Of a stretch of 64,000 nucleotides of DNA, positions 22,885 through 64,000 are shown in pieces. The translations under genes were made by a program, and so were the position numbers. Within the stretch, counting starts at the first letter, position 1; each line of letters begins with the position of its first letter. The stretch comes from Lepisosteus oculatus (lineage: Eukaryota > Chordata > Actinopteri > Semionotiformes > Lepisosteidae): positions 41,734,490 to 41,798,489 of the forward strand of contig NC_090709.1 in the NCBI RefSeq assembly GCF_040954835.1, written 5' to 3'. The notes below the pieces were generated by a model, which did no database searches, had not been told where the DNA came from, and was given only the letters and a program-made list of their open reading frames with translations.

Positions 22885-25690
22885 CCTCGTGCTGGGAGGA
22901 GCTCACCTGCGGAGATGGACCCCTCCCCAGCCTCTTGCTGGGAGCAGCTGGGAGGAGCTCACCTGTGGAGATAGACCCCTCCCCAGCCTCTTGCTGGGAG
23001 CAGCTGGGAGGAGCTCACCTGCGGAGATAGACCCCTCCCCAGCCTCTTGCTGGGAGCAGCTGGGAGGAGCTCACCTGCGGAGATGGACCCCTCCCCGGCC
23101 TCTTGCTGGGAGCAGCTCACCTGCGGAGATGGACCCGGCCTCTTGCTGGGAGCAGCTGGGAGGAGCTCACCTGCGGAGATGGACCTGGCCTCTTGCTGGG
23201 AGCAGCTGGGAGGAGCTCACCTGCGGAGATGGACCCCTCCCCAGCCTCTTGCTGGGAGCAGCTGGGAGGAGCTCACCTGCGGAAATGGACCCGGCCTCCT
23301 GCTGGGAGCAGCTGGGAGGAGCTCGCCTGCGGAGATGGACCCGGCCTCTTGCTGGGAGCAGCTGGGAGGAGCTCACCTGCGGAGATGGACCCCTCCCCGG
23401 CCTCTTGCTGGGAGCAGCTGGGAGGAGCTGACCTTCGGAGATAGACCCCTCCCCAGCCTCTTGCTGGGAGCAGCTCACCTGCGGAGATGGACCTGGCCTC
23501 TTGCTGGGAGCAGCTGGGAGGAGCTCACCTGCGGAGATAGACCCCTCCCCGGCCTCTTGCTGGGAGCAGCTGGGAGGAGCTCACCTGCGGAGATGGACCC
23601 CTCCCCAGCCTCTTGCTGGGAGGAGCTCACCTGCGGAGATGGACCCCTCCCCGGCCTCTTGCTGGGAGCAGCTGGGAGGAGCTCACCTGCGGAGATGGAC
23701 CCCTCCCCGGCCTCTTGCTGGGAGCAGCTGGGAGGAGCTCACCTGCGGAGATGGACCCCTCCCCAGCCTCTTGCTGGGAGCAGCTGGGAGGAGCTCACCT
23801 GCGGAGATGGACCCCTCCCCAGCCTCTTGCTGGGAGCAGCTGGGAGGAGCTCACCTGCGGAGATAGACCCCTCCCCGGCCTCTTGCTGGGAGCAGCTGGG
23901 AGGAGCTCACGTGCGGAGATAGACCCCTCCCCAGCCTCTTGCTGGGAGGAGCTCACCTGCGGAAATGGACCCGGCCTCCTGCTGGGAGCAGCTGGGAGGA
24001 GCTCGCCTGCGGAGATAGACCCCTCCCCGGCCTCTTGCTGGGAGCAGCTGGGAGGAGCTCACCTGCGGAGATGGACCCCTCCCCGGCCTCTTGCTGGGAG
24101 CAGCTGGGAGGAGCTCACCTGCGGAGATGGACCCCTCCCCAGCCTCTTGCTGGGAGCAGCTGGGAGGAGCTCACCTGCGGAGATAGACCCCTCCCCAGCC
24201 TCTTGCTGGGAGCAGCTGGGAGGAGCTGACCTTCGGAGATAGACCCCTCCCCAGCCTCTTGCTGGGAGCAGCTCACCTGCGGAGATGGACCTGGCCTCTT
24301 GCTGGGAGCAGCTGGGAGGAGCTCACCTGCGGAGATAGACCCCTCCCCGGCCTCTTGCTGGGAGCAGCTGGGAGGAGCTCACCTGCGGAGATAGACCCCT
24401 CCTCGGCCTCTTGCTGGGAGCAGCTGGGAGGAGCTCACCTGCGGAGATGGACCCGGCCTCTTGCTGGGAGGAGCTCACCTGCGGAGATGGACCCCTCCCC
24501 GGCCTCTTGCTGGGAGCAGCTGGGAGGAGCTCACCTGCGGAGATGGACCCCTCCCCGGCCTCTTGCTGGGAGCAGCTGGGAGGAGCTCACCTGCGGAGAT
24601 AGACCCCTCCCCGGCCTCTTGCTGGGAGCAGCTGGGAGGAGCTCACCTGCGGAGATGGACCCCTCCCCGGCCTCTTGCTGGGAGCAGCTGGGAGGAGCTC
24701 ACCTGCGGAGATGGACCCGGCCTCTTGCTGGGAGGAGCTCACCTGCGGAGATGGACCCCTCCCCAGCCTCTTGCTGGGAGCAGCTGGGAGGAGCTCACCT
24801 GCGGAGATAGACCCGGCCTCTTGCTGGGAGGAGCTCACCTGCGGAGATAGACCCCTCCTCGGCCTCTTGCTGGGAGCAGCTGGGAGGAGCTCACCTGCGG
24901 AGATGGACCCGGCCTCTTGCTGGGAGGAGCTCACCTGCGGAGATGGACCCCTCCCCGGCCTCTTGCTGGGAGCAGCTGGGAGGAGCTCACCTGCGGAGAT
25001 GGACCCCTCCCCGGCCTCTTGCTGGGAGCAGCTGGGAGGAGCTCACCTGCGGAGACAGACCCCTCCCCGGCCTCTTGCTGGGAGCAGCTGGGAGGAGCTC
25101 ACCTGCGGAGATGGACCCCTCCCCGGCCTCTTGCTGGGAGCAGCTGGGAGGAGCTCACCTGCGGAGATGGACCCGGCCTCTTGCTGGGAGGAGCTCACCT
25201 GCGGAGATGGACCCCTCCCCAGCCTCTTGCTGGGAGCAGCTGGGAGGAGCTCACCTGCGGAGATAGACCCGGCCTCTTGCTGGGAGGAGCTCACCTGCGG
25301 AGATGGACCCCTCCCCAGCCTCTTGCTGGGAGCAGCTGGGAGGAGCTCACCTGCGGAGATGGACCCGGCCTCTTGCTGGGAGGAGCTCACCTGCGGAGAT
25401 GGACCCCTCCCCGGCCTCTTGCTGGGAGCAGCTGGGAGGAGCTCACCTGCGGAGATGGACCCCTCCCCAGCCTCTTGCTGGGAGCAGCTGGGAGGAGCTC
25501 ACCTGCGGAGATAGACCCCTCCCCGGCCTCTTGCTGGGAGCAGCTGGGAGGAGCTCACCTGCGGACATAGACCCCTCCCCAGCCTCTTGCTGGGAGCAGC
25601 TGGGAGGAGCTCACCTGCGGAGATGGACCCCTCCCCGGCCTCGTGGTGGGAGCAGCTGGGAGGAGCTCGCCTGCGGAGGTGGACCCCTCC
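22885..25690 (+). repeat. 56-bp minisatellite (about 50 units)
   Basis: The full unit is 56 bp: GGAGCAGCTGGGAGGAGCTC, then ACCTGCGGAGATGGACCCCT, then CCCCGGCCTCTTGCTG. Shorter forms lack either 10 bp or 6 bp. Rare variants recur in blocks: a GGAAATGG variant at 23,281 and 23,961, and an ACCTTCGG variant at 23,431 and 24,229. This shows higher-order duplication of several hundred bp. All units contain E-box words (CAGCTG, CACCTG), and on the minus strand CCGCAG followed by GTGAGC, a donor-like sequence. The long open frames across it arise because the unit lacks stops; they are not genes. Confidence 0.95.
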
Positions 25691-27769
25691 CCCTCCCAGC
25701 TTCGTACCCGGAGCAGGCTGTGGAGGCCGAGGAAGACTCCGTGGCGAAGGGTGACTGGCTTTAACACACAGAAGACAAAGAACAACAGCTAGTTTAGAGG
25801 GGGGGGGGGGGGGAGACTGCAGACTGGTTCTTAAATCTCGGTCACAAAACAAATTCACCGACGTCACTGAGAACGTTTTACGCCTTTTAAATTGGAGCAC
25901 CAAAGCGTGAACTCCCCCCCAGGTCTGGTCGTAGGCGAGAGAGCGAGACTTCGTGAACCGGCCCTTCGCGCTCGCGAGTCCCTGTGATGGGACTGGCGAG
26001 GGACCACAGGCTGCGCATTACTGCAGAAATGTTTCGGCGTGATCTGCGGGCAGTCAGGCAGCATAGGCGGGCAAAACCGTCTTGAAGTCGAGAGCGATAT
26101 TCCTACTGGATCACAAGAGGCCTTTTTCCCCGCAAGCCTGCTCGTTTCCAAAAGTAATAAGGACACTTCGCCTCGTCGGAGACGTTTCGTGCCTCGTCCT
26201 CAATTGGAGGATATGGAGACCTGCAGCAGACCTGGAAACGTCCCTCGATCCTGTGGTGTCAACTTGGAAGGTTTCCCCCAAGTTGGCTTGGACATTTGAC
26301 CGTGATCGTGGTTTGAAATGCACTCAGCGACGCCGAATCTTTCTCACCCCGAAAGAGAAACCGAGCTGCAGTGCCCCCTTTAACCCAGGGCACTGAGTGG
26401 CCAGACGTTTTCACTGGCCCTGCCCGGTCCAGATTGCCAGCTCACCTGCAGCTCTGAGCAGCAGCAGCAGGGGGGGTTACAGGGTTTCCGGTCAGCGCCG
26501 AGCTGGTCTCTCACGCGGCGAGATGGAGACCGTCGGGCCTCCGGAGAGGAGCAGGACAGGGAACCAGGTCCATTCGGCTACCCCGCTGTTGACGCCGCCC
26601 GGTATCCCAGAGTCCGCCCCTGGGAGAAAAAACAAAAACAAAAACCAAGCAAATGATTCTGCACTGGTCCAGCTATTTTCACCAGTAGGAATCCCACGCG
26701 CGACTAAACACACCAGGGAACTCATTTTACTCTGAAACCACTGGGGGCCCCAGTACAGACCTCGCCGGGAATCCGAGGGTGGAAGTCGTCTCCTTACCCA
26801 GTCTTAACAGTTCCTGAAAAACCGGCTTCGGAGATCAGGGCCGCGCCGATCCGGACTTCCCAGGCCGATTAACCACCGGCGATAATTAACAGCTCGTCGT
26901 GGCCGATACGGACAGCCGATCGTTTCACTTTCCGGGCATTTTTTTGAGTTCACGCCAGAATCCACGGTTGATGCGCAACGAGGGTAAGAAGGCTAAAACC
27001 GTCAAGCTCGGTGCTGCTCGTCGGACCGACGTCAGAAAGTCCGCACGTCCGTCGTGAAGCGGTCTCCGACGCGCACCCCATCAGAAATCCGTTTCCCGTG
27101 TCGGGACTCCTGGCTGCCGCAGTTGACGTTTGCCTCTGGAAGAGGGGACTTCGCAGGCTTCCCCGCCCCAACACCACCACCCCGGTCGGGCTGCTCTGTG
27201 GCCGTACAGCGTGAGGACACCGCCCCCCCCTCCCACTGTCTGTAATAAAAGAGGCAGGAGAGAATGACCAGGCCCCCCCTCAGCAGCTGCACGTCCTAAA
27301 GTCCCGTTGGAAAAATGAGAGACGGGCGCCGGGATTAAGACATGTTCAAGGGGGAACACCTTTCACTCCCGGACCGAAAGTCCCACCGCTGCTGCTGGGG
27401 ACGATTTCCCATTAACAGCGCGAGACCACCCCCCCCCAGTCTGGAGGGAGAGGGGGCAGGAAGGAACGAACAGCTGCACGTCCCAAGTGACGCTTTAAAA
27501 GCAAGGGATGAGCCGGAGGAAGGAGTCGGGTCCGAGCAGCGGACCTCCACGGTCCCGGACAGAGGGTCCCGCCGGCCGCCTCCTCTCTGAGGGGGCAGGT
27601 TTCCCTACGAAGTCATCTCCACGACTCGCGAAAGGTCCGTGCCAGACGGGGGGGGGGGGGGGGGGAGACGCACCAAGCTTTCCGCGGCGATTTGCGAGAA
27701 GTGTGGCCGAGGGTGGGGGGGGCAGCTTCCTGCGAGACTCTTCTCCCCCTCCCGGACGCATCGGGGGCG

Positions 27770-35679: not shown

Positions 35680-38545
35680 ACACACGTAGCCGCAGGTGCA
35701 GACAGACACACACACACACCTGTAGCAGCAGGTGCAGACATACAAACGCACAACCGAGACACACACACACCTGTAGCAGCAGGTGCAGACATACAAACGC
35801 ACAACCGAGACACACACACACACACCTGTAGCAGCAGGTGCAGACATACAAACGCACAACCGAGACACACACACACACACACCTGTAGCAGCAGGTGCAG
35901 ACATACAAACGCACAACCGAGACACACACACACACCTGTAGCAGCAGGTGCAGACATACAAACGCACAACCGAGACACACACACACACACCTGTAGCAGC
36001 AGGTGCAGACATACAAACGCACAACCGAGACACACACACACACCTGTAGCAGCAGGTGCAGACATACAAACGCACAACCGAGACACACACACACACACCT
36101 GTAGCAGCAGGTGCAGACATACAAACGCACAACCGAGACACACACACACACACCTGTAGCAGCAGGTGCAGACATACAAACGTACAACCGAGACACACAC
36201 ACCTGTAGCAGCAGGTGCAGACATACAAACGTACAACCGAGACACACACACACCTGTAGCAGCAGGTGCAGACATACAAACGTACAACCGAGACACACAC
36301 ACACCTGTAGCAGCAGGTGCAGACATACAAACGCACAACCGAGACACACACGTATAGCAGGAGGTGCAGACATACAAACGCACAACCGAGACACACACGT
36401 ATAGCAGGAGGTGCAGACATACAAACGCACAACCGAGACACACACGTATAGCAGGAGGTGCAGACATACAAACGCACAACCGAGACACACACGTATAGCA
36501 GGAGGTGCAGACATACAAACGCACAACCGAGACACACACGTATAGCAGGAGGTGCAGACATACAAACGCACAACCGAGACACACACGTATAGCAGGAGGT
36601 GCAGACATACAAACGCACAACCGAGACACACACGTATAGCAGGAGGTGCAGACATACAAACGCACAACCGAGACACACACGTATAGCAGGAGGTGCAGAC
36701 ATACAAACGCACAACCGAGACACAAACGTATAGCAGGAGTTGCAGACATACAAACGCACAACCGAGACACACACACCTGTAGCAGGAGGTGCAGACATAC
36801 AAACGCACAACCGAGACACACACACCTGTAGCAGCAGGTGCAGACATACAAACGCACAACCGAGACACACACACCTGTAGCAGGAGGTGCAGACATACAA
36901 ACGCACAACCGAGACACACACACCTGTAGCAGGAGGTGCAGACATACAAACGCACAACCGAGACACACACACCTGTAGCAGCAAGTGCAGACATACAGAC
37001 GCACAACCGAGACACACACACCTGTAGCAGCAAGTGCAGACATACAGACGCACAACCGAGACACACACACACACCTGTAGCAGCAGGTGCAGACATACAA
37101 ACGCACAACCGAGACACACACACACACACACACCTGTAGCAGCAGGTGCAGACATACAAACGCACAACCGAGACACACACACACACCTGTAGCAGCAGGT
37201 GCAGACATACAAACGTACAACCGAGACACACACACACCTGTAGCAGCAGGTGCAGACATACAAACGCACAACCGAGACACACACACACACCTGTAGCAGC
37301 AGGTGCAGACATACAAACGTACAACCGAGACACACACACACCTGTAGCAGGAGGTGCAGACATACAAACGCACAACCGAGACACACACGTATAGCAGGAG
37401 GTGCAGACATACAAACGCACAACCGAGACACACACGTATAGCAGGAGGTGCAGACATACAAACGCACAACCGAGACACACACGTATAGCAGGAGGTGCAG
37501 ACATACAAACGCACAACCGAGACACACACGTATAGCAGGAGGTGCAGACATACAAACGCACAACCGAGACACACACGTATAGCAGGAGGTGCAGACATAC
37601 AAACGCACAACCGAGACACACACGTATAGCAGGAGGTGCAGACATACAAACGCACAACCGAGACACACACGTATAGCAGGAGGTGCAGACATACAAACGC
37701 ACAACCGAGACACACACGTATAGCAGGAGGTGCAGACATACAAACGCACAACCGAGACACACACGTATAGCAGGAGGTGCAGACATACAAACGCACAACC
37801 GAGACACACACGTATAGCAGGAGGTGCAGACATACAAACGCACAACCGAGACACACACGTATAGCAGGAGGTGCAGACATACAAACGCACAACCGAGACA
37901 CACACGTATAGCAGGAGGTGCAGACATACAAACGCACAACCGAGACACACACGTATAGCAGGAGGTGCAGACATACAAACGCACAACCGAGACACACACG
38001 TATAGCAGGAGGTGCAGACATACAAACGCACAACCGAGACACAAACGTATAGCAGGAGGTGCAGACATACAAACGCACAACCGAGACACAAACGTATAGC
38101 AGGAGTTGCAGACATACAAACGCACAACCGAGACACATACACCTGTAGCAGGAGGTGCAGACATACAAACGCACAACCGAGACACACACACCTGTAGCAG
38201 CAGGTGCAGACATACAAACGCACAACCGAGACACACACACCTGTAGCAGGAGGTGCAGACATACAAACGCACAACCGAGACACACACACCTGTAGCAGGA
38301 GGTGCAGACATACAAACGCACAACCGAGACACACACACCTGTAGCAGCAAGTGCAGACATACAGACGCACAACCGAGACACACACCTGTAGCAGCAAGTG
38401 CAGACATACAGACGCACAACCGAGACACACACACCTGTAGCAGCAAGTGCAGACATACAGACGCACAACCGAGACACACACCTGTAGCAGCAGGTGCAGA
38501 CATACAAACGCACAACTGAGACACACATACATACACCTGTAGCCG
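35680..38545 (-). repeat. CA-rich 47-bp minisatellite, copy 1 (about 59 units)
   Basis: The core unit (plus strand) is 47 bp: GTATAGCAGGAGGTGCAGAC, ATACAAACGCACAACCGAGA, CACACAC. Variants have CTGTAGCAG and longer (CA)n runs. Three zones are visible: CTGTAGCAG units with long CA at both ends, and homogeneous GTATAGCAG units in the middle, arranged twice (36.35-36.77 and 37.38-38.11 kb). No unit has a stop on the minus strand, so all three minus frames stay open for about 3 kb. The unit length is not a multiple of three, so the frames are interchangeable. Confidence 0.95.
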
Positions 38546-39957: not shown

Positions 39958-42900
39958 ATGTCTCAGTGTCAAGGTAAGGAGGAGTGGAGTGTTCTGCTGA
40001 AAAGGTCTGAACAAGGTCTTGTTTATCTGACTTCAAAAATATTCTTTTTGGGACATGCTGTAATAGTGTAAGGCAGTATTGTGTGTGTGTGTGTGGGGGA
40101 GAAGTGGTTCCCCAGTCCAGTTGGCCTTATCCCCAGTCTTGTTATCCAACTACGTTTGGGGAGGGATACAGGCCTTGCCCTCCCTGATAAAATAACCTCC
40201 CTGTGAATGGATCTGGAGCTTGTGTGCTGGTTTCCAAACCAGTAACCAGCCCCCAGCCCTCTAGGCTCTCGGTACTTGATTTGCTATAATGAGTCGCATG
40301 GTGTTTGTAGATCAGGAGCTCCTATAGTGGTTTCTTTTTTTATTGCACCTCATTGACAACATTAAGCTGATAATGGACCAGTGTAAAGAATTAAGTGGGT
40401 TTCTGGGCACTCCGCATGTACCATCCTAAATGCTTGTTTTTGACTAGTTCTGGAGAGGGTGGGCTTTGGCGGGGGGGGGGATCCACCTGGATGATGTGAC
40501 ACCAGTCAGTGTGCCAGAACACTCAACCCACAGCAGCTCACAGTGCAGAGCAGAGAGATGGAGCCAGTTCAGAGAGGGGGGTTATTAGGAGGCCATGATT
40601 GGTAAGGGCCAATAGAAAATTTGGCCAGGACGCCGGGGTTACACCCCTATTCTTCTCCAGAAACGCCCTGGGATTATTAATGACCACAGAGAGTCAGGAC
40701 CTCGGTTTGACGTCTCATCCGAAGGACGGCGCCTGTTCACAGTCCAGTGTCCCCCGTCACTATACTGGGGCATCAGGACCCACACAGACCGCAGGGTGAG
40801 AGCGCCCCCTGCTGGCCCCACTCACACCTCTCCCAGCAGCAACCTTAGTTTTTCCCAGGAGGTCTCCCCTCCAGGTACTGGCCAGGCTCACACCTGCTGA
40901 GCTTCAGTGGAGGGGCTGCCAGTTGTGAGTTGCAGGGTGATGTGGCTGCTGGATATTTCCACTCCCAATAAATGGGAATTCCTAATGATCTCTATAGTGT
41001 TTCTGGGCTCTCCACTCGGAGGTATTCCTAGGTCATGGGGATCCCCTCCAACCCCCCCAGTGTGCAGCCCCACCTGGATGATGCTTTCCTAAGAATACAA
41101 CTGCTCAGCACCCTGGTCTATGGCAATCGAGAGGGCTGATGTCCTCACTTGGATATCCACATTCTCAGTTTGCTCAAAGTGGATGTGCGGTCGTCTTCAC
41201 CAAGCTTGAGTGCTCGATGTTGTGGAAGCTAAGACTTTAAAGCCAACTTCAAATTTTTTTTTGTCCCACTCAGACCTAGTGCCTGCTGACCAGCAGCTGA
41301 TGAACGACATGGGGATGTTCCGAGATCTGCTCCCGGCCGCAGAGAAGACGGCTCTGCTCTTCCACCTGTCCTACCTGTGTCTGGCCACCCACCCCGAGCT
41401 GGAGAGGAAGCTGAGGCTCAAGGCCACCGAGAGCCAGCAGCTGTTCGCCTCCTCCGAGGTCCTGCTGCTCCAGGTGGGTCTGTGTGCCTGCTGCTCCAGG
41501 TGGGTCTGTGTGCCTGCTGCTCCAGGTGGGTCTGTGTGCCTGCTGCTCCAGGTGAGTTTGTCTCTTGGGTCAGAGCTTAAGAACACAAGTTGAGTGATTT
41601 TAGGACCTGTCAGGCCCGTTTGGTATCTGCTTCAGTAACTGGGCTGGCCAGCTTGTTCCACACCCCCACCACCCTTTGTGTGAAGTGTATGTGTATCACA
41701 ATCAACCCAAGATACACTCCACCCCCAAGATTTAATACGTGTAACCCTTCAGCTTGGTGGTGTGGGCATCTAATTAGTGAGACTTTCTCTTTTCATCTGG
41801 ATCTAATGGAAGACTTGTTTTGGCTCATGACTATTGATGTCTTAGTTCTATGAAACCTATTCTACCTGTTGCCCTAGATCTTCATGGGGGGGGGATGGAA
41901 GAACTATACCTTTGGCATAAATGTCAGTGTGATGTTTGAGGAGATGGGTGCTAAAATTGCCATAGAGAGTTGCATTCCTAGTTGAATGAAGGGCCCTTGA
42001 ACTGGTCAGTTAATACTGAGGACACCCCAGTGGCTTTGTCCTGTGGAAGCCATTTTGGCTCAGGTATAGCTCCATAGAAGAGCCAAAATGGCTGCTGACG
42101 GCAGCATGAAGGTCCTACCAGCTGTTTTGTGGTTCTGCAGGGCCACAGGATTTAAGTAGGCCGAATAAGGGGCATCCTTAACTCGAGCGTGAAGGGGTGG
42201 GTGGGGGGGGGCGATGGGAGCAATGGTGCTGATGCTTGATCTCTCGCTCGCAGTGCGCCAGTACAGCGACCAACATCCTCGGCACCATGCTGCCGATGAT
42301 CCGGACGGCGGTGAAGAAGAGGAACGTGGAGCTGGCCAAGAAGTTCCTGGACAAGTCGAAGGGCTGGATCGAGGACATCTGCCACCAGGTGGACCGCTCG
42401 GTGGAGAAGTAAGCTCTGGCTTCGTTTTGTGGGAACCAGCCATTGGAAAGAGCCAAAGACTCTGGCTGCTTGTAAGCACATGAAAGGAGATATCCTGTTC
42501 TAACTGAGCGGCTTGTTCCCCCTCCCACCCCTCTTGGTGTACAGCACACAACCCTGCCTGGCTCGCTTGCTGGGATTCTCCTGTCCCATAACCTGCGACC
42601 TCTCCTCTTCACAAGAGGCTTACCACTCCCATCTCTTCCAGGTACGAAGCTCTGGGCAGGGGCGTGGGCGACACCTGCAGCGACGTGGTCAAGACCAAGG
42701 CGGACAAGGAGCAGCAGGAGAAGGAGAAGAGCGCGGAGGCCCAGGCCCTGGAGGGACAGTGCAGCAAGCTGGAGACCTCGGTCAAACAGCTGCAGGGGGA
42801 GAGGAACCAGCTGGAGACGGACATCCAGGACAAGAACAAGGAGCTGCAGGACCTCATCATCAGCATCGGGGAGCGGGACCGCAAGTTCGCCATCGTGGCG

Positions 42901-44335
42901 GCCGTGGTGCCCATCCTGGGCAACATGATCAACGCCATCCAGAAGGCCGCCAATGACCCCAAGGACAAGGCGGCCGTGGAGACCCTCAAGGTCCAGCTGG
43001 AGGAGCTGCACAAGAGCAAGGACGCCAAGGTGTCGGAGCTGTGGCAGAAGGAGAAGGAGCTGATCCGGCTGCAGCTGGACTACGCCAAGGTCCAGATCGA
43101 CATCGGTAGGCAGGCGGGTTGCCAGATCATGGGGCCGCTGGGACGTGTTTTGTGTGGGGTATTGGCTTGTTCCACACCCCTACCACTCGGTGTGAAGAAG
43201 CCACTCCTGTCCTGACCGAAGTCCCGTTCTCGGCTTCAAGTCCATAGTGAAGTCAGGATTTAGGGAAATGCGTTTTTATTTTTTACGTGATTGTTTGCTT
43301 TTAACAGACCTGAGCTGTCACCAGAGTTGGAAACCACTTCTGTCTCTAATCCATTTCTACCATCCAAGAGTTAAATCTGCCAGCTGAGCTCGGGAGATGA
43401 TTCCTGCTTTCCTCTTCCTCTGCCTCCCAGGATCCATTGGCGATCCCAGCACGCTGGCGGAGGTCCAGAAGTGCCTGACCAGGATCCAGGAGATCCTGCT
43501 GCAGATGAAGAAGTTCTGGGAGATGACTGGCGTGGCACTGGACAACCTCAAGCAGAGGACCTTCGCCGGAGAGGACATGCTGGACTTCCTGGAGGAGTGC
43601 GAGGCTGACTTCCTGTCCAGCTTGGATAAGGCCGAGCCGGTCAGTTTGTTTTTCTGCTCGATTCTGGTAGATCCATCTCAGAGGGTGGGGTGGACAGAGC
43701 TGTCCTGCTTGGGGTCTCTCTGTCGGGTTGAACTTCTCTGATCTGGTACCTGCTGGCCCAGATCTCTGTCCTGGACACCCCCCAGACACTCTGACTTGTC
43801 CAGAAATTGTGCCACAGCACTAACAATCCTACAGGCAGCCCCTGAGCTGCTGATACGCTGGTTAGCATAGGTAGGGGGAGACCTTTCTCCACAAAAGGCA
43901 ACGCTGTTCTCGGGAAGGAAGAGCCTTCCCCTGGGAAGCCGGGACCCGAATGCCGTGATCTACGTCGTTGAGCGGATGAATTTCCTGGAAGTTTGGCCTC
44001 TGCCCTCAACTGTCATCCTAGATATTGTGGGTGGTGGTGGTGGGGGGGGGGCGCTTCCCAGTGGCTTCTGGGATATTACCCCGGTCGCTGAGTCTCATGT
44101 CGGTGCTTCTTCTCCCCCTTCCCCGCAGATCTGGAAGAGCTTCTGCAACGTCTGCATGCACGTCCGCGGGATGTTCATCCTGCAGTCCAAGGAGGCCTAC
44201 AGGTTCCTGGAGGTCAGCCCCTCGGCCCTGAGCAAGGAGCAGTGGCAGCAGGAGTACGACGGCGTGGTGGCGCAGCTCGACAAGCTGAACCCCCCCGCCC
44301 CCCAGGAGGCGCTGCAGGTCGAGGGGCCGGAGTAG
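39958..44335 (+). CDS. Gene copy 1: uncharacterised helical coiled-coil protein with central hydrophobic segment (416 aa)
   Basis: Six coding exons with consistent phases: 39,958-39,973; 41,274-41,473; 42,254-42,408; 42,642-43,105; 43,431-43,639; 44,129-44,335 (stop TAG at 44,333). All introns are GT-AG. Starts MSQCQ, with no signal peptide. Residues about 5-123 are helical and amphipathic. Residues about 140-204 form a charged coiled coil, 206-223 are hydrophobic (FAIVAAVVPILGNMINAI), and about 232-276 form a second coiled coil. The rest (280-416) is helical with a low-complexity PPAP tail. Helix, hydrophobic hairpin, helix is a layout known from several unrelated membrane-inserting families, including alpha-helical pore formers, but I recognise no diagnostic motif and assign no function. 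Coding exon 2 ends in a tandem array of four donors. The AATAAA at 44,421 is the likely polyadenylation signal. Confidence 0.85.
40490..40955 (-). mobile_element. 5S-derived SINE in intron 1 of gene copy 1, tail truncated
   Basis: On the minus strand from the 5S-like head (near 40,950) to the mid-body; the LINE-like tail is missing. Absent from the same intron of copies 2 and 3, which instead carry an L2-type LINE fragment. A further SINE tail scrap (CCAGTGTGCAGCCCCACC) lies at about 41,030-41,095 and is shared with copies 2 and 3. Confidence 0.8.
41474..41557 (+). repeat. Tandem 26-bp splice-donor repeat, copy 1 (four donors)
   Basis: The exon end CTGCTGCTCCAG followed by GT recurs at 26-bp spacing, with GT at 41,474, 41,500, 41,526 and 41,552. 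The first three are GTGGGT; the last is the perfect consensus GTGAGT. Donor 4 adds 78 nt, which is in frame and has no stop, inserting 26 cysteine-rich residues. Donors 2 and 3 shift the frame. Confidence 0.9.
41590..41770 (+). repeat. Dispersed repeat fragment in intron, copy 1
   Basis: Contains GGCCAGCTTGTTCCACACCC and CCACCCTTTGTGTGAAG. A related fragment (GGCTTGTTCCACACCCC, CACTCGGTGTGAAGAAG) lies in the intron after coding exon 4 at about 43,160-43,210, and both recur in the other gene copies. Likely an old dispersed element; class unknown. Confidence 0.5.
42048..42093 (+). repeat. Perfect 13-bp hairpin in intron, copy 1
   Basis: AGCCATTTTGGCT (42,048-42,060) and its exact reverse complement AGCCAAAATGGCT (42,081-42,093) with a 20-bp loop. 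Conserved in copy 2 at 53,085-53,130. Both stem halves include a YY1-like AAAATGGC word. Confidence 0.7.
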
Positions 44336-50835: not shown

Positions 50836-53800
50836 CTACTCCGGCCCCTCGACCTGCAGCGCCTCGGGGGCGGGGGGGTTCAGCTTGTCGAGCTGCGCCA
50901 CCACGCCGTCGTACTCCTGCTGCCACTGCTCCTTGCTCAGCGCCGAGGGGCTGACCTCCAGGAACCTGTAGGCCTCCTTGGACTGCAGGATGAACATCCC
51001 GCGGACGTGCATGCAGACGTTGCAGAAGCTCTCCCAGATCTGCGGGGGGGGCGGGGAAGGGGGAGGAGAAGAAGCACCAACATGAGACTCAGCGACCGGG
51101 GTAATATCCCAGAAGCCACTGGGAAGTGCCCCCCCCTCCCACCACCACCACCACCCACAATATCTAGGATGACAGTTGAGGGCAGAGGCCAAACTTCCAG
51201 GAAACTCATCCGCTCAACGACGTAGATCACGGCATTCGGGTCCCGGCTTCCCAGGGGAAGGCTCTTCCTTCCCGAGAACAGCGTTGCCTTTTGTGGAGAA
51301 AGGTCTCCTCCTACCTATGCTAACCAGTACATCAGCAGCTCAGGGGCTGCCCGTAGGATTGTTAGTGCTGTGGCACAATTTCTGGACAAGTCAGAGTGTC
51401 TGGGGGTGTCCAGGACAGAGATCTGGGCCAGCAGGTACCAGATCAGAGAAGTTCAACCCGACAGAGAGACCCCAAGCAGGACAGCTCTGTCCACCCCACC
51501 CTCTGAGATCGATCTACCAGAATCGAGCAGAAAAACAAACTGACCGGCTCGGCCTTATCCAAGCTGGACAGGAAGTCAGCCTCGCACTCCTCCAGGAAGT
51601 CCAGCATGTGCTCTCCGGCGAAGGTCGTCTTCGTGAGGATGTCCAGCGCCACGCCAGTCGTCTCCCAGAACTTCTTCATCTGCAGCAGGATGTCCTGGAT
51701 CCTGGTCAGGCACTTCTGGACCTCCGCCAGCATCTTGGGGTCGCCAATGGATCCTGAGAGGCAGGGGAAGAGGAAAGTAGGAATCATCTCCCGAGCTCAG
51801 CTGGCAGATTTAACTCTTGGATGGTAGAAAGGGATTAGAGAAAGAAGTGATTTCCAACTCTGGTGACAGCTCAGGTCTGTTTAAAGCAAACAATCACGTA
51901 AAAAATAAAAACACATTTCCCTAAATCCTGACTTCACTATGGACTTGAAGCCGAGAGCGGGACTTCGGTCAGGACAGGAGCGGCTTCTTCACACCGAGTA
52001 GTAGGGGTGTGGAACAAGCCAATACCCCACACAAAACACGTCCCAGCGGCCCCATGATCTGGCAACCCGCCCGCCTACCGATGTCGATCTGGACCTTGGC
52101 GTAGTCCAGCTGCAGCCGGATCAGCTCCTTCTCCTTCTGCCACAGCTCCGACACCTTGGCATCCTTGCTCTTGTGCAGCTCCTCCAGCTGGACCTTGAGG
52201 GACTCCACGGCCGCCTTGTCCTTGGGGTCGTTGGCGGCCTTCTGGATGGCGTTGATCATGTTGCCCAGGATGGGCACCACGGCCGCCACGATGGCGAACT
52301 TGCGGTCCCGCTCCCCGATGCTGATGATGAGGCCCTGCAGCTCCTTGTTCTTGTCCTGGATGTCCTTCTCCATCTGGTCCCTCTCCCCCTGCAGCTGTTT
52401 GACCGAGGTGTCCAGCTTGCTGGACTGTCCCTCCAGGGCCTGGGCCTCCGCGCTCTTCTCCTTCTTCTGCTGCTCCTTGTCCGCCTTGGTCTTGACCACG
52501 TCGCTGCAGGTGTCGCCCACGCCCCTGCCCAGAGCCTCGTACCTGGAAGAGACGGGAGTGGTCAGCCTCTTGTGAAGAGGAGAGGTCGCAGGTTATGGGA
52601 CAGGAGAATCCCAGCAAGCCAGGCAGGGGTGTGTGCTGTACACCAAGAGTGGTGGGAGGGGGAACAAGCCGCTCAGTTAGAACAGGATATCTCCTTTCAT
52701 GTGCTTACAAGCAGCCAGAGTCTTTGGCTCTTTCCAATGGCTGGTTCCCCCAAAACGAAGCCAGAGCTTACTTCTCCACCGAGCGGTCCACCTGGTGGCA
52801 GATGTCCTTGATCCAGCCCTTCGACTTGTCCAGGAACATCTTGGCCAGCTGCACGTTCCTCTTCTTCACCGCCGTCCGGATCATCGGCAGCATGGTGCCG
52901 ACGATGTTGGTCCCCGTACTGGCGCACTGCGAGCGAGAGATCAAGCATCAGCACCATTGCTCCCATCTCCCCCCCCTTCAAGCTCGAGTTTAGGATGCCC
53001 CTTATCCGGCCTATTTAATCCTGTGGCCCTGCAAAACCCCAACACAGCTGGCAGGACCTTCACGCTAATGACCTTGCCGTCAGCAGCCATTTTGGCTCTT
53101 CTATGGAGCTATACCTGAGCCAAAATGGCTTCTATAGGACACAGCCACTGGGGTGTCCTCAGTATTAACTGACCAGTTCAAGGGCACTTCATTCAACTAG
53201 GAATGCAACTCTCTATGGCAATTTTAGCACCCATCTCCTCAAACATCACACTGACATTTATGCCAAAGGTATAGTTCTTCCACCCTCCCCCCCACCATGA
53301 AGACCTGGGATAAGGGGTTGAAAAGGTTTCATAGAACTAAGACATCAATAGTCATGAGCCAAAACAAGTCTTCCATTAGATCCAGATGAAAGGAGAAAGT
53401 CTCACTTATTAGATGCCCACACCACCAAGCTGAAGGGTTACACGCATTAAAACTTGGGGGTGCAGTGCATCTTGGGTTGATTGTGATACACATACACTTC
53501 ACACAAAGGGTGGTGGGGGTGTGGAACAAGCTGGCCAGCCCGGTTACAGAAGCAGATACCAAACGGGCCTGACAGGTCCTAAAATCGCTCAACTTGTATT
53601 CTTAAGCTCTGACCCAAGAGACAAACTCACCTGGAGCAGCAGGCACACAGACCCACCTGGAGCAGCAGGCACACAGACCCACCTGGAGCAGCAGGACCTC
53701 GGAGGAGGCGAACAGCTGCTGGCTCTCAGTGGCCTTGAGCCTCAGCTTCCTCTCCAGCTCGGGGTGGGTGGCCAGACACAGGTAGGACAGGTGGAAGAGC

Positions 53801-55238
53801 AGAGCCGTCTTCTCTGCGGCCGGGAGCAGATCTCGGAACATATCCATGTCGTTCATCAGCTGCCGGTCAGCGGGCACTAGGTCTGAGTGGGACAAAAAAA
53901 ATTGAAATTGGCTTTAAAGTTTTAGCTTCAACAACCTCGAGCACTCAAGCTTGGTGAAGACGTCCACACATCCACTTTGAGCAAACTGAGAATTTGGATA
54001 TCCAAGTGAAGACATCAGCCCTCTCGATTGCCATAGACCAGGGTGCTGAGCAGTTGTATTCTTAGGAAAGCATCATCCAGGTGGGGCCGCACACTGGGGG
54101 GGCTGGAGGGGATCCCCATGACCTAGTAATACCTCTGAGTGGAGAGCATTAGGAACTCTTGGCTTAACGAGAATTATCTGAACCATTTGTTCCCAGCTCT
54201 TGAACACGATGGGGCTTTGACTACTGTAGTTTGCTCACAAAAAGAGTCACCACCATGTAGACTTTAAAACCCTCCTGCTCACCTATAAGGGTCCGCGTGG
54301 CTTGGCACCTCAGTACCTGTCTGAGCTATCATCGCCCTACTCCCCTGCTCTCCTTACTCTCCCCCCCAAGCCCGTCTGCATTGTAGGGGTGACAGGGCCT
54401 TCTCCTGTTGTGCCCCCAAGCTCTGGAACTCTCTGCCCAAGGATATCAGAGAGTCACCTTCTCTAAACTCCTGCCAATCCAGAGTCCAAACCCTCTTCTT
54501 CAGAAGAGCCTTTATTGAACTGGTTCTGTTCTTCACCCCTCTGCTTCTCTTCGTACCACCATCCACAGTCTCCTCTGTACATTGTGATTGTGTACTCTTA
54601 CTTATTGTTGTCATCCTGTAAAGCGCTTTGAGAAGCCACCTTTGAGCAGGAGGATTTTAAAGTCCACACAGAATTTGACCGGAAGCCAGTGCAGGGACTC
54701 CAGGATAGGAGTTATGTGAACACTTGCACCAGACCTGGTCAGGATTCTGGCTGCTGAATTTCGGACATTCTGCAGTTTGTTCAGAGTAGATTTAGATACC
54801 CCCAGCGAGTAGAGCATTCCAGTAGTCAATTCGAGAGAACACAAATGTGTTGATCAGCTCTTCAGCCACAGTTAACGATAGCACAGGGTGTAGTCTTGCG
54901 ATATTTCTGAGGTGAAAACAAGATTTTTTGGACAGTATACTGTCCGAGTTGGACCGAGTTTAAGAGTCAGGCGTGCAGCCTGGAGAGAACTGGGGCTGGT
55001 TACTGGTCTCGAAACACACAAGCTCCTGTGTGAACCAGATCGATTCACAGCAAGTTTATTTTACTGGGGAGGGCAAAGCCTGTATCCCTCCCCAAATATA
55101 GTTAGATAAGAGTGGGGTGCCCTGAGCTGTAAGGCCAACTGGGTTGGGGAACCACTACTCCCCAATACTGCCTCACAATTAAACAGCATGTCCCAAAAAG
55201 AAAATTCTTGAAGCCTCCTTACCGTGACACTGAGACAT
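50836..55238 (-). CDS. Gene copy 2: paralogue of copy 1 (415 aa)
   Basis: Six coding exons on the minus strand: 55,223-55,238; 53,683-53,882; 52,772-52,926; 52,079-52,542; 51,545-51,753; 50,836-51,039. Sizes 16, 200, 155, 464 and 209 are identical to copy 1; the last exon is one codon shorter (a Q is missing in the PAP tail). Every frame and splice site is intact. The hydrophobic segment (206-223) is unchanged, while the coiled coils and exon 5 carry scattered replacements (for example C164S, and DNLKQRT to DILTKTT). The gene appears functional. Compared with copy 1, the start peptide is MSQCH. Family unknown, as for copy 1. Confidence 0.85.
53085..53130 (-). repeat. Perfect 13-bp hairpin in intron, copy 2
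   Basis: Same stem as at 42,048-42,093, with both halves unchanged although the surrounding intron has diverged. Confidence 0.65.
53626..53682 (-). repeat. Tandem 26-bp splice-donor repeat, copy 2 (three donors)
   Basis: On the minus strand the donor of coding exon 2 is followed by two further donors at +26 and +52. The last is GTGAGT. Use of the last donor adds 52 nt and shifts the frame, unlike copy 1. Confidence 0.88.
54340..54610 (-). repeat. Dispersed repeat next to LINE fragment, copy 2
   Basis: Contains (minus strand) AGAGTTCCAGAGCTTGGGGG and GAGAAGGCCCTGTCACCC, a segment common in fish repeats. Shared with copy 3 at 62,820-63,070. Confidence 0.5.
54611..55040 (-). mobile_element. 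L2/CR1-type LINE reverse transcriptase fragment in intron 1, copy 2
   Basis: Encodes the C-terminal end of a non-LTR reverse transcriptase, with motifs LQNVRNSAARILTR, HITPILESLHWLPV and DFKILLL known from L2/CR1-type LINEs. A frameshift splits it after the DYWNALLAG motif. The same broken fragment is in copy 3 and absent from copy 1. Confidence 0.75.
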
Positions 55239-55773
55239 GGTTATGGTATGCTGGAGGCGACCGTCAGAGAGAGAGAGAGAGAGCCAATTTATCCTGTCAC
55301 GACAGAAAAAAAAGATGTAATTTAGACAAACGGGTGTGAAGACACTTCCAATTACTAACCCAGCAATGAGACAGTAAGCAGCCCAATTGGGATTGAGTGG
55401 AGAAGCAGGAAAGGCACAGGCTAGTTCTTAAACAAGAACTTGAAGGACCCACTCCCCCACCCACCCAAGAAGAAATAAAACCTCTGGAGTCTCCCACATT
55501 TCCACACCGAGCAGCCTTCCAACACAACAGTCCGGCTGTGACACAGGCTGCAATTCGCTTCAATTAAAAATGCTCAAGTTGAGCTTTTAAAGCCAGTCAG
55601 AGCGCTGAGAGACCACCCCCAGTTCGGAACCAGAAGCGACACACTCAGGAAACACAATAGACCCCTAGCGGAGAACACCAGCAAGTCTTCACCTGAACCC
55701 AGCCCTGAAAGACCACTGTCTGAACCTCGACTCTACTGGAAGAACTGAGAGCACCCTCCCCCCTTCCGGGCCC

Positions 55774-55816
55774 CTCTTATAGGGCTGCGCACTGCCCACA
55801 GGAAGTCCATATAAGG
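55774..55816 (-). promoter_or_regulatory. Gene copy 2 promoter (CArG and TATA)
   Basis: On the minus strand CArG box CCTTATATGG (55,807-55,816) and TATAAGAG (55,774-55,781). The upstream GC-box region of copy 1 is missing. The 5' UTR exon ends with the same GTGAAG donor, and the start-codon exon begins at 55,293 after TCGTGACAG. Confidence 0.55.
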
Positions 55817-55869
55817 TTCGCTGTTTGTAACTGTGTGTTATTGTTAACGACGCGTTTCTTTTCTCTTGG

Positions 55870-56140
55870 TTGAAGGGGGGAGAGTTTCCACCCGGTTTGC
55901 AGAGAGAGGAGGGAACTCAGTTGATCTGGCAGCCCAGTATGTGATCTCCTACAGAATATGTCAATATTTTATAATATGTCTTTGTTGTAAATGTCTGTAA
56001 CATGTCTGTAGATTTTATTTTACTTCTATTTTTTGTTTTGTTTAATGTAAATATCATTACTTTCATCTGCTTTGGCAACACTGATTGTACCCATCGGTCA
56101 TGCTAATAAAGCACCTTGAATTGAATTGAATTGAGAGGCC
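55870..56140 (-). mobile_element. LINE 3' tail insertion, copy 2
   Basis: About 270 bp ending in AATAAAGCACC then TTGAATTGAATTGAATTGAG (plus strand), a LINE/SINE tail with repeated TTGAA. Inserted in the promoter-proximal region; also in copy 3 (61,225-61,520) but not copy 1, where the flanks are joined near 39,005-39,040. Confidence 0.7.
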
Positions 56141-56400
56141 GCCCTCCCCCCCCGAAAATTAATCCTAGTGCGCCCAAAAAAAAAGGAGCTTGTTTTTTTT
56201 CCCCATATTTTCTACTTTGGTCACGGCCATTCGACCTCATAGGAGGACGGAATAAGGGGAATGTCTCTTTATTTTCTCCCCCCAGCAGCGTCGCGGAAAA
56301 AAAAGGAGGGGAGCCGGTCAGTTTGCAGGACAGTTAACTCGCGTTGAGGGAGACAGGGCAAACCGCCGCCTCAGCTGGTCTCTCCCTCTCGGCGACCTGC

Positions 56401-56495
56401 GCCGGCTGTGCGTCGCCGAGCAACGTCGGGGGGGCGCCTAGTCTTTTCGTCACTTCCGGCCCCGCACAGAAGCGGGGGAGACGGCTTCATGGTTG
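56401..56495. promoter_or_regulatory. CpG-rich promoter-like block, copy 2 (one ETS site lost)
   Basis: TCACTTCCGG (56,450-56,459) and X-box-like GTCGCCGAGCAAC (56,412-56,424) are kept, but the second ETS core is changed (GGAAG to GGCTG near 56,403). Copy 3 has the same change. Confidence 0.45.
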
Positions 56496-56594
56496 CGCTC
56501 TGGCGAGAGGAGCCGGACGGGTCCGCTGGTTGTCGTCACCGCTTCTTATTCGGGATCTTGACTTCTGTAACAAATAGCGTTTTCGGTTTCTCAG

Positions 56595-57330
56595 TTGTGT
56601 ATGTATGTCTGCACCTGCTGCTATACGTGTGTGTCTCAGTTGTGCGTTTGTATGTCTGCACCTTCTGACATACGTGTGTGTCTCGGTTGTGCGTTTGTAT
56701 GTCGGCACCTGTGGCGACAGGTGTGTGTGTGTGTCTCAGTTGTGTGTTTGTATGTCTGCACCTGTGGCGACAGGTGTGTGTGTGTGTCTCAGTTGTGTGT
56801 TTGTATGTCTGCACCTGTGGCGACAGGTGTGTGTGTGTCTCTCAGTTGTGCGTTTGTATGTCTGCACCTGCGTGTGTGTCTCAGTTGTGTGTTTGTATGT
56901 CTGCAACTGCTGCTACAGGTGTGTGTGTGTCTCAGTTGTGTGTTTGTATGTCTGCACCTGCAGCTACAAGTGTGCGTCTCAGTTGTGCGTTTGTATGTCT
57001 GCACCTGCAGCTACAAGTGTGCGTCTCAGTTGTGCGTTTGTATGTCTGCACCTGCAGCTACAAGTGTGCGTCTCGGTTGTGCGTTTGTATGTCTGCACCT
57101 GCAGCTACAAGTGTGCGTCTCGGTTGTGCGTTTGTATGTCTGCACCTGCTGCTACAGGTGTGTGTGTGTGTGTCTCAGTTGTGTGTCTGTCTGTCTGCAC
57201 CTGCAGCTACAGGTGTGTGTGTGTGTGTCTCAGTTGTGTGTCTGTCTGTCTGCTCCTGCGGCTACGTGTGTGTGTGTGTCTGTCTGTCTGCGCCTGCTGC
57301 TACAGGTGTGTGTGTGTTGTGCGAGGGCTG
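56595..57330 (+). repeat. CA-rich 47-bp minisatellite, copy 2 (about 16 units)
   Basis: Plus-strand reading of the copy 1 unit (GTTTGTATGTCTGCACCTG, GTGTGTGTCTCAGTTGTG). Contains variants not in copy 1: GTGGCGACAG, GCAGCTACAAGTGTGCG. Long open frames are again due to absence of stops in the unit. Confidence 0.93.
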
Positions 57331-60254: not shown

Positions 60255-60329
60255 CTCCACGCTGCAGGTACGAGCTGAGAGAGTCACTGTAGGCAATATA
60301 TCACTGGACAGGCCAGACAGCCCTCGCAC

Positions 60330-60775
60330 AACACACACACACACCTGTAGCAGCAGGTGCAGACATACAAACGCACAACTGAGACGCACACTTGTAGCCG
60401 CAGGTGCAGACATACAAACGCACAACTGAGACGCACACTTGTAGCCGCAGGTGCAGACATACAAACGCACAACTGAGACGCACACTTGTAGCCGCAGGTG
60501 CAGACATACAAACGCACAACTGAGACACACACACACACACCTGTCGCCGCAGGTGCAGACATACAAACGCACAACTGAGACACACACACACACACCTGTC
60601 GCCGCAGGTGCAGACATACAAACGCACAACTGAGACACACACACACACACACCTGTAGCCGCAGGTGCCGACATACAAACGCACAACCGAGACACACACG
60701 TATGTCTGAAGGTGCAGACATACAAACGCACAACTGAGACACACACGTATAGCAGCAGGTGCAGACATACATACA
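60330..60775 (-). repeat. CA-rich 47-bp minisatellite, copy 3 (about 9 units)
   Basis: Same unit as copies 1 and 2, with the CTTGTAGCCG and CTGTCGCCG variants. The shortest of the three arrays. Confidence 0.93.
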
Positions 60776-60889
60776 CAACTGAGAAACCGAAAACGCTATT
60801 TGTTACAGAAGTCAAGATCCCGAATAAGAAGCGGTGACGACAACCAGCGGACCCGTCCGGCTCCTCTCGCCAGAGCGCAGCCATGAAGC

Positions 60890-60985
60890 CGTCTCCCCCG
60901 CTTCTGTGCGGGGCCGGAAGTGACGAAAAGACTAGGCGCCCCCCCGACGTTGCTCGGCGACGCACAGCCGGCGCAGGTCGCCGAG
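60890..60985. promoter_or_regulatory. CpG-rich promoter-like block, copy 3 (one ETS site lost)
   Basis: CCGGAAGTGAC near 60,914 and X-box-like GTTGCTCGGCGAC near 60,948 are kept; the second ETS core is lost as in copy 2. Confidence 0.45.
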
Positions 60986-61224
60986 AGGGAGAGACCAGCT
61001 GAGGCGGCTGTTTGCCCCGTCTCCCTCAACGCGAGTTAACTGTCCTGCAAACTGACCGGCTCCCCTCCTTTTTTTTCCGCGACGCTGCTGGGGGGAGAAA
61101 ATAAAGAGACATTCCCCTTATTCCGTCCTCCTATGAGGTCGAATGGCCGTGACCAAAGTAGAAAATATGGGGAAAAAAAACAAGCTCCTTTTTTTTTGGG
61201 CGCACTAGGATTAATTTTCGGGGG

Positions 61225-61520
61225 GGGAGGGCGGCCTCTCAATTCAATTCAATTCAAGGTGCTTTATTAGCATGACCGATGGGTACAATCAGTGTTGCCA
61301 AAGCAGATGAAAGTAATGATATTTACATTAAACAAAACAAAAAATAGAAGTAAAATAAAATCTACAGACATGTTACCGACATTTACAACAAAGCCATATT
61401 ATAAAATATTGACATATACTGTAGGCGGCTGGAGCATTATTGGGAGACAGACTCACTGTTCCTCAGGCTGGGACACGAGATCACATACTGGGCTGCCAGA
61501 TCAACTGAGTTCCCTCCTCT
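61225..61520 (+). mobile_element. LINE 3' tail insertion, copy 3
   Basis: Same insertion as 55,870-56,140 (reverse complement), beginning AATTCAATTCAATTCAAGG. Slightly longer than in copy 2: it keeps about 60 extra bp (GGGAGACAGACTCACTGTTC region). Confidence 0.7.
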
Positions 61521-61612
61521 CTCTCTCTGCAAACCGGGTGGAAACTCTCCCCCCTTCAACCAAGAGAAAAGAAACGCGTCGTTAACAATAACACACAGTT
61601 ACAAACAGCGAA

Positions 61613-61736
61613 CCTTATATGGACTTCCTGTGGGCAGTGCGCAGCCCTATAAGAGGGGCCCGGAAGGGGGGAGGGTGCTCTCAGTTCTTCCAGTAGAGTC
61701 GAGGTTCAGGCAGTGGTCTTTCAGGGCTGGGTTCAG
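61613..61736 (+). promoter_or_regulatory. Gene copy 3 promoter and 5' UTR exon
   Basis: CArG CCTTATATGG at 61,613-61,622, TATAAGAG at 61,648-61,655 and a 5' UTR exon ending at the GTTCAG/GTGAAG donor near 61,736. The acceptor at 62,135 precedes the start-codon exon. Confidence 0.55.
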
Positions 61737-62186: not shown

Positions 62187-64000
62187 ATGTCTCAGTGTCA
62201 CGGTAAGGAGGCTTCAAGAATATTCTTTTTGGGACATGCTGTTTAATTGTGAGGCAGTATTGGGGAGTAGTGGTTCCCCAATCCAGTTGGCCTTACAGCT
62301 CAGGGCACCCCACTCTTATCTAACTATATTTGGGGAGGGATACAGGCTTTGCCCTCCCCAGTAAAACAAACTTGCTGTGAATCGATCTGGTTCACACAAG
62401 AGCTTGTGTGTTTCGAGACCAGTAACCAGCCCCAGTTCTCTCCAGGCTGCACGCCTGACTCTTCAACTCGGTCCAACTCGGACAGCATACTGTCCAAAAA
62501 ATCTTGTTTTCACCTCAGAAATATCGCAAGACTACACCCTGTGCTATCGTTAACTGTGGCTGAAGAGCTGATCAACACATTTGTGTTCTCTCGAATTGAC
62601 TACTGGAATGCTCTACTCGCTGGGGGTATCTAAATCTACTCTGAACAAACTGCAGAATGTCCGAAATTCAGCAGCCAGAATCCTGACCAGGTCTAGTGCA
62701 AGTGTTCACATAACTCCTATCCTGGAGTCCCTGCACTGGCTTCCGGTCAAATTCTGTGTGGACTTTAAAATCCTCCTGCTCAAAGGTGGCTTCTCAAAGC
62801 ACTTTACAGGATGACAACAATAAGTAAGAGTACACAATCACAATGTACAGAGGAGACTGTGGATGGTGGTACGAAGAGAAGCAGAGGGTTGAAGAACAGA
62901 ACCAGTTCAGTAAAGGCTCTTCTGAAGAAGAGGGTTTGGAGTCTGGATTGGCAGGAGTTTAGAGAAGGTGACTCTCTGATATCCTTTGGCAGAGAGTTCC
63001 AGAGCTTGGGGGCACAACAGGAGAAGGCCCTGTCACCCCTACAATGCAGACGGGCTTGGTGGGGACAGTAAGGAGAGCAGGGGAGTAGGGCGATGATAGC
63101 TCAGACAGGTACTGAGGTGCCAAGCCACGCGGACCATTATAGGTGAGCAGGAGGGTTTTAAAGTCTACATGGTGGTGACTCTTTTTGTGAGCAAACTACA
63201 GTAGTCAAAGCCCCATCGTGTTCAAGAGCTGGGAACAAATGGTTCAGATAATTCTTGTCAAGCCAAGAGTTCCTAATGCTCTCCACTCGGAGGTATTCCT
63301 AGGTCATGGGGATCCCCTCCAGACCCCCAGTGTGCAGGCCCACCTGGATGATGCTTTCCTAAGAATACAACTGCTCAGCACCCTGGTCTATGGCAATCGA
63401 GAGGGCTGATCGAGAGTCTTAACTTGGATATCCAAATTCTCAGTTTGCTCAAAGTGGATGTGCGGACGTCTTCACCAAGCTTGAGTGCTCGAGGTTGTGG
63501 AAGCTAAAACTTTAAAGCCAATTTCAATTTTTTTTTGTCCCACTCAGACCTAGTGCCCGCTGACCGGCAGCTGATGAACGACATGGATATGTTCCGAGAT
63601 CTGCTCCCGGCCACGGAGAAGACGGCTCTGCTCTTCCACCTGTCCTACCTGTGTCTGGCCGCCCACCCCGAGCTGGAGAGGAAGCTGAGGCTCAAGGCCA
63701 CCGAGAGCCAGCAGCTGTTCGCCTCCTCCGAGGTCCTGCTGCTCCAGGTGGGTCTGTGTGCCTGCTGCTCCAGGTGGGTCTGTGTGCCTGCTGCTCCAGG
63801 TGAGTTTGTCTCTTGGGTCAGAGCTTAAGAATACAAGTTGAGCGATTTTAGGACCTGTCAGGCCCGTTTGGTATCTGCTTCAGTAACCGGGCTGGCCAGC
63901 TTGTTCCACACCCCCACCACCCTTTGTGTGAAGTGTATGTGTATTGCAATCAACCCAAGATGCACTGCACCCCCAAGATTTAATGCGTGTAACCCTTCAG
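62187..64000 (+). CDS. Gene copy 3: paralogue of copies 1 and 2 (partial, window end)
   Basis: Coding exons 1 (62,187-62,202) and 2 (63,548-63,747) are present with the same sizes and phases; the remaining exons lie beyond the window. Start peptide MSQCH as in copy 2. Exon 2 shares R and D replacements with copy 2 (ADRQL, NDMDM) and has private changes (PATEKT, LAAHPEL). Nothing visible breaks the gene. The intron between holds the L2-type LINE fragment. Confidence 0.8.
62395..62820 (+). mobile_element. L2/CR1-type LINE reverse transcriptase fragment in intron 1, copy 3
   Basis: Same fragment as 54,611-55,040, with motifs HLRNIARLHPVLSL, FVFSRIDYWNALLAG and, in another frame, LQNVRNSAARILTR and SLHWLPV. 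The frameshift is shared with copy 2, so the LINE had decayed before this duplication. Confidence 0.75.
62821..63180 (+). repeat. Dispersed repeat next to LINE fragment, copy 3
   Basis: Same block as 54,340-54,610, with AGAGTTCCAGAGCTTGGGGG. Class unknown. Confidence 0.5.
63748..63804 (+). repeat. Tandem 26-bp splice-donor repeat, copy 3 (three donors)
   Basis: GT at 63,748, 63,774 and 63,800; the last is GTGAGT. Same number as copy 2, one fewer than copy 1. Confidence 0.88.

Follow-up and report, generated by a model that had tools for sequence, protein, structure and literature searches.

In this work we describe three copies of one gene in a stretch of DNA of 64,000 nt (the window), in all three of which the boundary between coding exon 2 and intron 2 is spanned by a 26-bp tandem array with CAG/GT in every unit (the slash marks the exon-intron junction). 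Because CAG/GT recurs in each unit, the array would offer several 5' splice sites in competition. The anatomy of the array, the reading frames that it gives in silico, its presence in all three paralogues and the difference of one unit between them are established here (Table 1). The explanation that we favour, with about even confidence, is that the competing 5' splice sites are a mutational by-product of this boundary minisatellite and that their use would be mixed and unregulated. A regulated or selected switch is a conjecture; rival donors that arise as a by-product of such a minisatellite account for what is seen just as well.

Table 1. Positions in the window of the three gene copies, their donor arrays and the individual donors of copy 1
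Feature	Positions	Strand	Basis
Copy 1 gene, coding span, six coding exons	39958..44335	+	Open frame of 416 aa; GT-AG boundaries
Copy 1 coding exons	39958-39973, 41274-41473, 42254-42408, 42642-43105, 43431-43639, 44129-44335	+	In-silico gene model
Copy 1 coding exon 2, up to donor 1	41274..41473	+	Six-exon spliced frame open
Copy 1 array: three CTGCTGCTCCAG/GTGGGTCTGTGTGC units and a terminal CTGCTGCTCCAG/GTGAGTTTGTCTCT	41462..41565	+	TRF; unit comparison
Copy 1 donor 1, CAG/GTGGGT, offset 0, in frame	41474..41479	+	Splicing in silico
Copy 1 donor 2, CAG/GTGGGT, offset +26, stop after 95 aa	41500..41505	+	Splicing in silico
Copy 1 donor 3, CAG/GTGGGT, offset +52, stop after 245 aa	41526..41531	+	Splicing in silico
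Copy 1 donor 4 (terminal), CAG/GTGAGT, offset +78, in frame, 26 added residues	41552..41557	+	Splicing in silico
Copy 1 exon 3 start: begins TGCGCCAGTACAGCG, clustered AGs including ones ending at +8 and +13	42254..42266	+	
Copy 2 gene, coding span, six coding exons	50836..55238	-	Open frame of 415 aa from donor 1; GT-AG boundaries
Copy 2 array: two GTGGGT units (donors 53682, 53656) and a terminal GTGAGT (53630)	53617..53694	-	TRF; unit comparison
Copy 3, first two coding exons (remainder past window end)	62187..63747	+	
Copy 3 array: two GTGGGT units (donors 63748, 63774) and a terminal GTGAGT (63800)	63736..63813	+	TRF; unit comparison

Judged from their alignments, copies 2 and 3 are the closer pair: they share a long alignable block (53430-57036 with 60325-64000, 95.7%), which takes in intron 1 sequence to which copy 1 has no match. 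Flanking divergence between the copies is about 2-5%. Upstream of each copy lies a minisatellite with units of about 47-55 bp (at 35.7-38.5, 56.6-57.3 and 60.3-60.8 kb). These upstream minisatellites (35710-38493, minus strand; 56907-57315, plus strand; 60335-60664, minus strand) carry CTGCTGCTACAGGTGTGTGTGT on the strand opposite the gene in three of three cases, one mismatch away from the exon-end-plus-donor pattern, a likeness that is probably a low-complexity coincidence. Elsewhere in the window, a 56-bp minisatellite of about 54 copies (22891-25692, minus strand) holds 48 of the 60 minus-strand CAGGTGAG sites, a donor-like core, and a large inverted repeat occupies positions ~2120-21096, with its centre near 11.3 kb (arms 6021-11054 with 16517-11581, 80%; 3161-5037 with 20632-18787, 84%; 2120-3378 with 21096-19854, 75%).

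The encoded protein looks like one of the long-helix type. None of the 21 Pfam families matched by the copy 1 protein reached the cut-off (best DUF3450, E 0.0021, 17.8 bits versus 32.6), and a PDB sequence search gave five sequences, of which one, formin-binding protein 1, was below 0.001 (E 0.0002, query residues 94-231). With exon 4, 15 NCBIfam families were matched, none at the cut-off; the best was prokaryotic SMC (E 0.00025), and there was a weak match to a Bacillus enterotoxin subunit (E 0.028, 13.3 bits versus 500). Exon 2 with its array matched no NCBIfam family. An AlphaFold2 model of exon 4 alone, built from a two-sequence alignment, had a pLDDT of 71.6, and none of its 209 Foldseek matches up to E 10 was at E <= 0.001.

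The sequence-only reading of this DNA had placed donors every 26 bp at the end of coding exon 2, four in copy 1 and three in copies 2 and 3, with GTGAGT always last; TRF and a count of the spaced pattern confirm the period, and the coordinates and donor counts were right. TRF delimits 3.9 copies of the unit in copy 1 (41461-41561, 97% matches) and 2.9 copies in each of the two others (53621-53695, in the minus-strand gene, and 63735-63809). The pattern GTGGGT-N20-GTGGGT, with at most one mismatch, occurs seven times in the window versus 0.56 expected, a number reached in none of 100 shuffles, and all seven occurrences fall in the gene copies (3, 2 and 2). Each unit consists of 12 nt of exon end and 14 nt of intron start. 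The internal unit, CTGCTGCTCCAG/GTGGGTCTGTGTGC, is present in triplicate in copy 1 and in duplicate in each of the other two copies, and is followed by CTGCTGCTCCAG/GTGAGTTTGTCTCT; beyond donor 1 there are thus three extra units in copy 1 (+26, +52 and +78) and two in copies 2 and 3 (+26 and +52).

The seven internal units are identical to one another, as are the three terminal ones, and the two kinds differ at 5 of 26 positions. This is as expected of an array that would have been homogenised inside and have diverged at its edge. In each pair of copies the array shows 0 differences over 65 aligned positions, while exon 2 before the array differs at 5, 7 and 4 of 187 positions (copies 1-2, 1-3 and 2-3, respectively) and the sequence just after it at 8, 8 and 4 of 201. 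Independent drift would be expected to leave 2.8-3.3 substitutions in the internal units, and the probability of none is about 0.04-0.06 with hand-set branch lengths. The identity of the internal units weakly hints at homogenisation or constraint.

By frame arithmetic the first donor stays in frame however many units there are, and the terminal donor only with 0, 3 or 6 extra units, that is, multiples of three. The proposal that each gain or loss of a unit alters which donors are productive therefore stands for the donors beyond the first and fails for the first, which is always in frame. Splicing of copy 1 in silico gives a product of 416 aa when donor 1 is used and one of 442 aa, with the insert VGLCACCSRWVCVPAAPGGSVCLLLQ (26 residues, five of them cysteine), when donor 4 is used; the earlier prediction that this last donor adds 78 nt, in frame, and 26 cysteine-rich residues is borne out, the 442-aa frame being intact. 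In copy 2 the frame from donor 1 runs for 415 aa, that from the +26 donor stops after 95 aa and that from the +52 donor after 354 aa, and copy 3 was followed only through exon 2, where the window end cuts the gene. The predicted frameshift at +52 in copies 2 and 3 is accordingly right in its arithmetic and is seen in silico in copy 2. The long shifted frame of copy 2 was considered as a conserved product and rejected, as in copy 1 the frame from the +52 donor already closes after 245 aa. Under the usual 50-nt rule, premature stops far enough upstream of the last exon junction mark a message as a candidate for decay. The stops reached from copy 1 donors 2 and 3 lie 782 and 358 nt before that junction, and the copy 2 +26 stop lies 782 nt before it, which makes these three messages decay candidates; the copy 2 +52 message might escape decay, because its stop is only 31 nt before the junction. 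All these outcomes presume one acceptor for exon 3. In copies 1 and 2 alike, an AG at +8 in exon 3 would bring the +26 donor into frame, and in copy 1 an AG at +13 would restore the frame for the +52 donor; the second AG of the TGCGCCAGTACAGCG cluster of copy 1 is lost in copy 2.

The absence of stops from the copy 1 insert had been pointed out in the sequence-only reading. The insert is indeed stop-free, but so are 14,756 of 20,000 triple units made by fully shuffling the letters of the unit, and we rejected this property as evidence of selection. Of 20,000 sequences of random bases drawn at window composition, with GT and CAG fixed, 6,175 were stop-free, and shuffling with GT and CAG fixed gave 20,000 of 20,000, a result forced by design because the only A of the unit then always sits in CAG. 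At least five cysteines were reached in 344 of 20,000 full shuffles, in 17 of 20,000 random sequences and in 2.6% of the shuffles with GT and CAG fixed. These controls make the stop-free insert unremarkable and the count of five cysteines unusual; the count is a consequence of reading a single TG- and GC-rich unit in each of three frames. The unusual cysteine count speaks against the view of a mere by-product, as does the available part of PMC8055015, according to which a significant fraction of tandem splice sites is expressed above noise, with signs of selection and regulation.

The comparison of copies 1 and 2 bears on which donor has mattered. Over exons 2-6, 36 of 1,232 positions differ, exon 3 accounting for 6 over its 155 positions, and there is a single indel, of 3 nt, and none that is frame-breaking; over introns 2-5, compared without the extra array units, 67 of 1,733 positions differ and six of eight indels are frame-breaking. 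Had the exons gained frame-breaking indels at the rate of the introns, 4.3 of them would be expected versus 0 seen (Poisson P ~0.014), and therefore frame 0, and hence donor 1, seems to have mattered in copy 2, where frame 0 is intact over 1,248 nt and is reached with the standard acceptor from donor 1 only. For these two copies the dN/dS ratio comes to 0.81 overall, with 0.44 in exon 2 (about six changes) and 0.94 in the exons after it, the contrast between exon 2 and the rest not being significant (Fisher P 0.62, rounded counts). The ratios of 0.81 and 0.94 point to weak coding constraint, which makes the case for donor 1 use in copy 2 a soft one. Exon 5 (43431-43639; 51753-51545) is the most diverged of exons 2-6 between these copies, with 12 of 209 positions different versus 67 of 1,733 in the introns, possibly as a result of relaxed or positive selection.

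Donor strength was assessed from predicted pairing with U1 and from an approximate donor frequency matrix. Both donor types form nine pairs in the predicted U1 duplex (-11.1 kcal/mol for GTGGGT and -11.9 for GTGAGT), and the donors of copy 1 exons 1, 3, 4 and 5 are predicted to pair more weakly (-10.0, -4.5, -7.9 and -4.9 kcal/mol, respectively). With this matrix the terminal donor scores 8.51 of a possible 8.63 bits and the other array donors 5.94, a distance of 2.6 bits, and the terminal donor is the top-scoring site of both complete genes. RNA structure was rejected as a ground for donor choice, since none of the three stretches folded was unusual relative to shuffles (z 0.57, 0.21 and 0.64). 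From these sequence properties, strength and position would favour the terminal donor, and frame maintenance in copy 2 would favour donor 1.

The maintenance of frame 0 in copies 1 and 2, without any frame-breaking exon indel, is what would be expected if donor 1 alone were used in every copy, its context favouring it and the rest of the array being inert intron. The dominance of one major site that PMC8055015, in its available part, describes as usual for tandem sites fits such a silent array, and so does the finding, in the accessible text of PMC1877881, that in competing-donor reporters 84% of the tested conserved intronic elements, when they stood between the rival sites, reduced splicing at the intron-proximal one, although the action of such elements here is putative. 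Since the best-scoring donor of both complete genes lies 52-78 nt downstream of donor 1, exclusive use of donor 1 strikes us as rather unlikely.

Of two strong 5' splice sites, the intron-proximal one tends to be preferred, and the terminal donor of the array is both the best-scoring and the intron-proximal one. Were it dominant, copy 1 would make mainly the 442-aa form, and copies 2 and 3 mainly frameshifted messages, with loss of function, an outcome with which the low constraint downstream of exon 2 and the possible escape of the copy 2 +52 message from decay are consistent. The intact frame 0 of copy 2 argues against such dominance, as do the lack of a significant dN/dS difference between exon 2 and the rest and the differing lengths of the shifted frame in copies 1 and 2. 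Moreover, in the portion of PMC2423196 available to us, human alternative donors are split about 59% proximal-major versus 41% distal-major, and because of this split position alone is undecisive for donor choice. We consider dominance of the terminal donor to be unlikely.

The sequence-only reading saw in the array a length-mutable splicing switch; in the form weighed here, frequent gain and loss of units would tune productive output under selection. It is true that 26 is not a multiple of three, that unit number differs between copy 1 and copies 2 and 3, and that the frame status of the terminal donor changes with it. The mutability itself is not supported: three paralogues whose flanks are about 2-5% apart show one unit difference, which leaves a high rate of unit change unsupported, three copies being too few to exclude it. 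As donor 1 is always in frame and simple accidents account for the observations, a switch under selection seems quite improbable. The more elaborate form of this idea, which we regard as equally doubtful, is that unit number would be a heritable modulo-3 setting: with three extra units a dominant terminal donor would add 26 cysteine-rich residues, with one or two it would shift the frame, and slippage would set output and isoform for each paralogue, perhaps for each individual.

That the 78-nt GT...AG span would itself be spliced as a nascent intron, at once or stepwise with each CAG/GTGGGT serving as acceptor and then as donor, is barely credible: AG/GT stands at every unit boundary, so the 78-nt and 52-nt spans start with GT and end with AG, and tandem duplication of AG/GT is a published route to introns (PMC2891723, available part), but the span holds no branch-point-like motif and the outcome would be the same in mature mRNA as use of donor 1. 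Within these 78 nt, where A occurs only in the three CAGs, the motif scan found no yTnAy, although a relaxed branch point could escape such a scan; recursive splicing was rejected on this ground.

Among known systems, the array appears to belong with the variable tandem repeats found at exon-intron boundaries of recent human paralogues (De Grassi & Ciccarelli, 2009; PMC2812944), its distinctive feature being a 26-bp, frame-changing unit. In the available part of that paper, the repeats have units of 30 bp on average, repeated four times, splice sites are activated in some cases, transcripts retaining the repeat also exist for 66% of intron modifications, and coding intron modifications with units below 40 bp comprise three in-frame and no out-of-frame cases (its Table 2). 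Here too a minisatellite-sized unit lies across an exon-intron boundary, exon 2/intron 2, and unit number varies between near-identical paralogues (3 versus 2). Unlike those human, transcript-supported cases, the present array is described from genomic sequence and has a unit that moves the terminal donor in and out of frame. As in tandem donors (PMC8055015 and PMC2423196, available parts), there are several close donors at one exon end, with in-frame and out-of-frame outcomes and candidate decay targets, and four (copy 1) or three (copies 2 and 3) CAG/GTGRGT donors pair with U1 in predicted duplexes. Because the spacing is 26 nt, set by the repeat unit, and not the 2-12 nt of the subtle tandem sites of TassDB2 (PMC2878309, available part), the array falls outside the subtle class. 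The available text of PMC2891723 presents duplicated AG/GT proto-splice sites as a route to introns and to new splice choices. The likeness to intron gain by this route lies in the tandem duplication of an AG/GT boundary, with AG/GT at both span ends, and in the new splice choices; the difference is that the donor of an existing intron is multiplied here, and no new intron position is seen. An origin of introns from tandem arrays was also reportedly described by Zhuo et al. in 2007. Titles and abstract openings gave no description of a whole-donor repeat with a unit not divisible by three, which is no proof of absence.

In conclusion, we propose that a tandem duplication of the exon 2/intron 2 boundary would have preceded the separation of the three gene copies, and that the 26-bp unit would then have been amplified to two or three extra copies, presumably via slippage or unequal exchange. 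Among the rival donors so formed, the terminal one, which matches the consensus best and lies nearest to the intron, would be in frame in copy 1, with 26 more residues, and out of frame in copies 2 and 3. We infer that donors beyond the first are used, and that their use is mixed and unregulated, as in ordinary splicing variation, unit number being a mutational by-product and not a selected switch. If donors beyond the first are used, these paralogues would be a natural experiment on the competition of identical, evenly spaced 5' splice sites, and would also show how a coding boundary tolerates a repeat whose unit is not divisible by three; if donor 1 alone is used, the array would be neutral, a curiosity that can mislead gene annotation.
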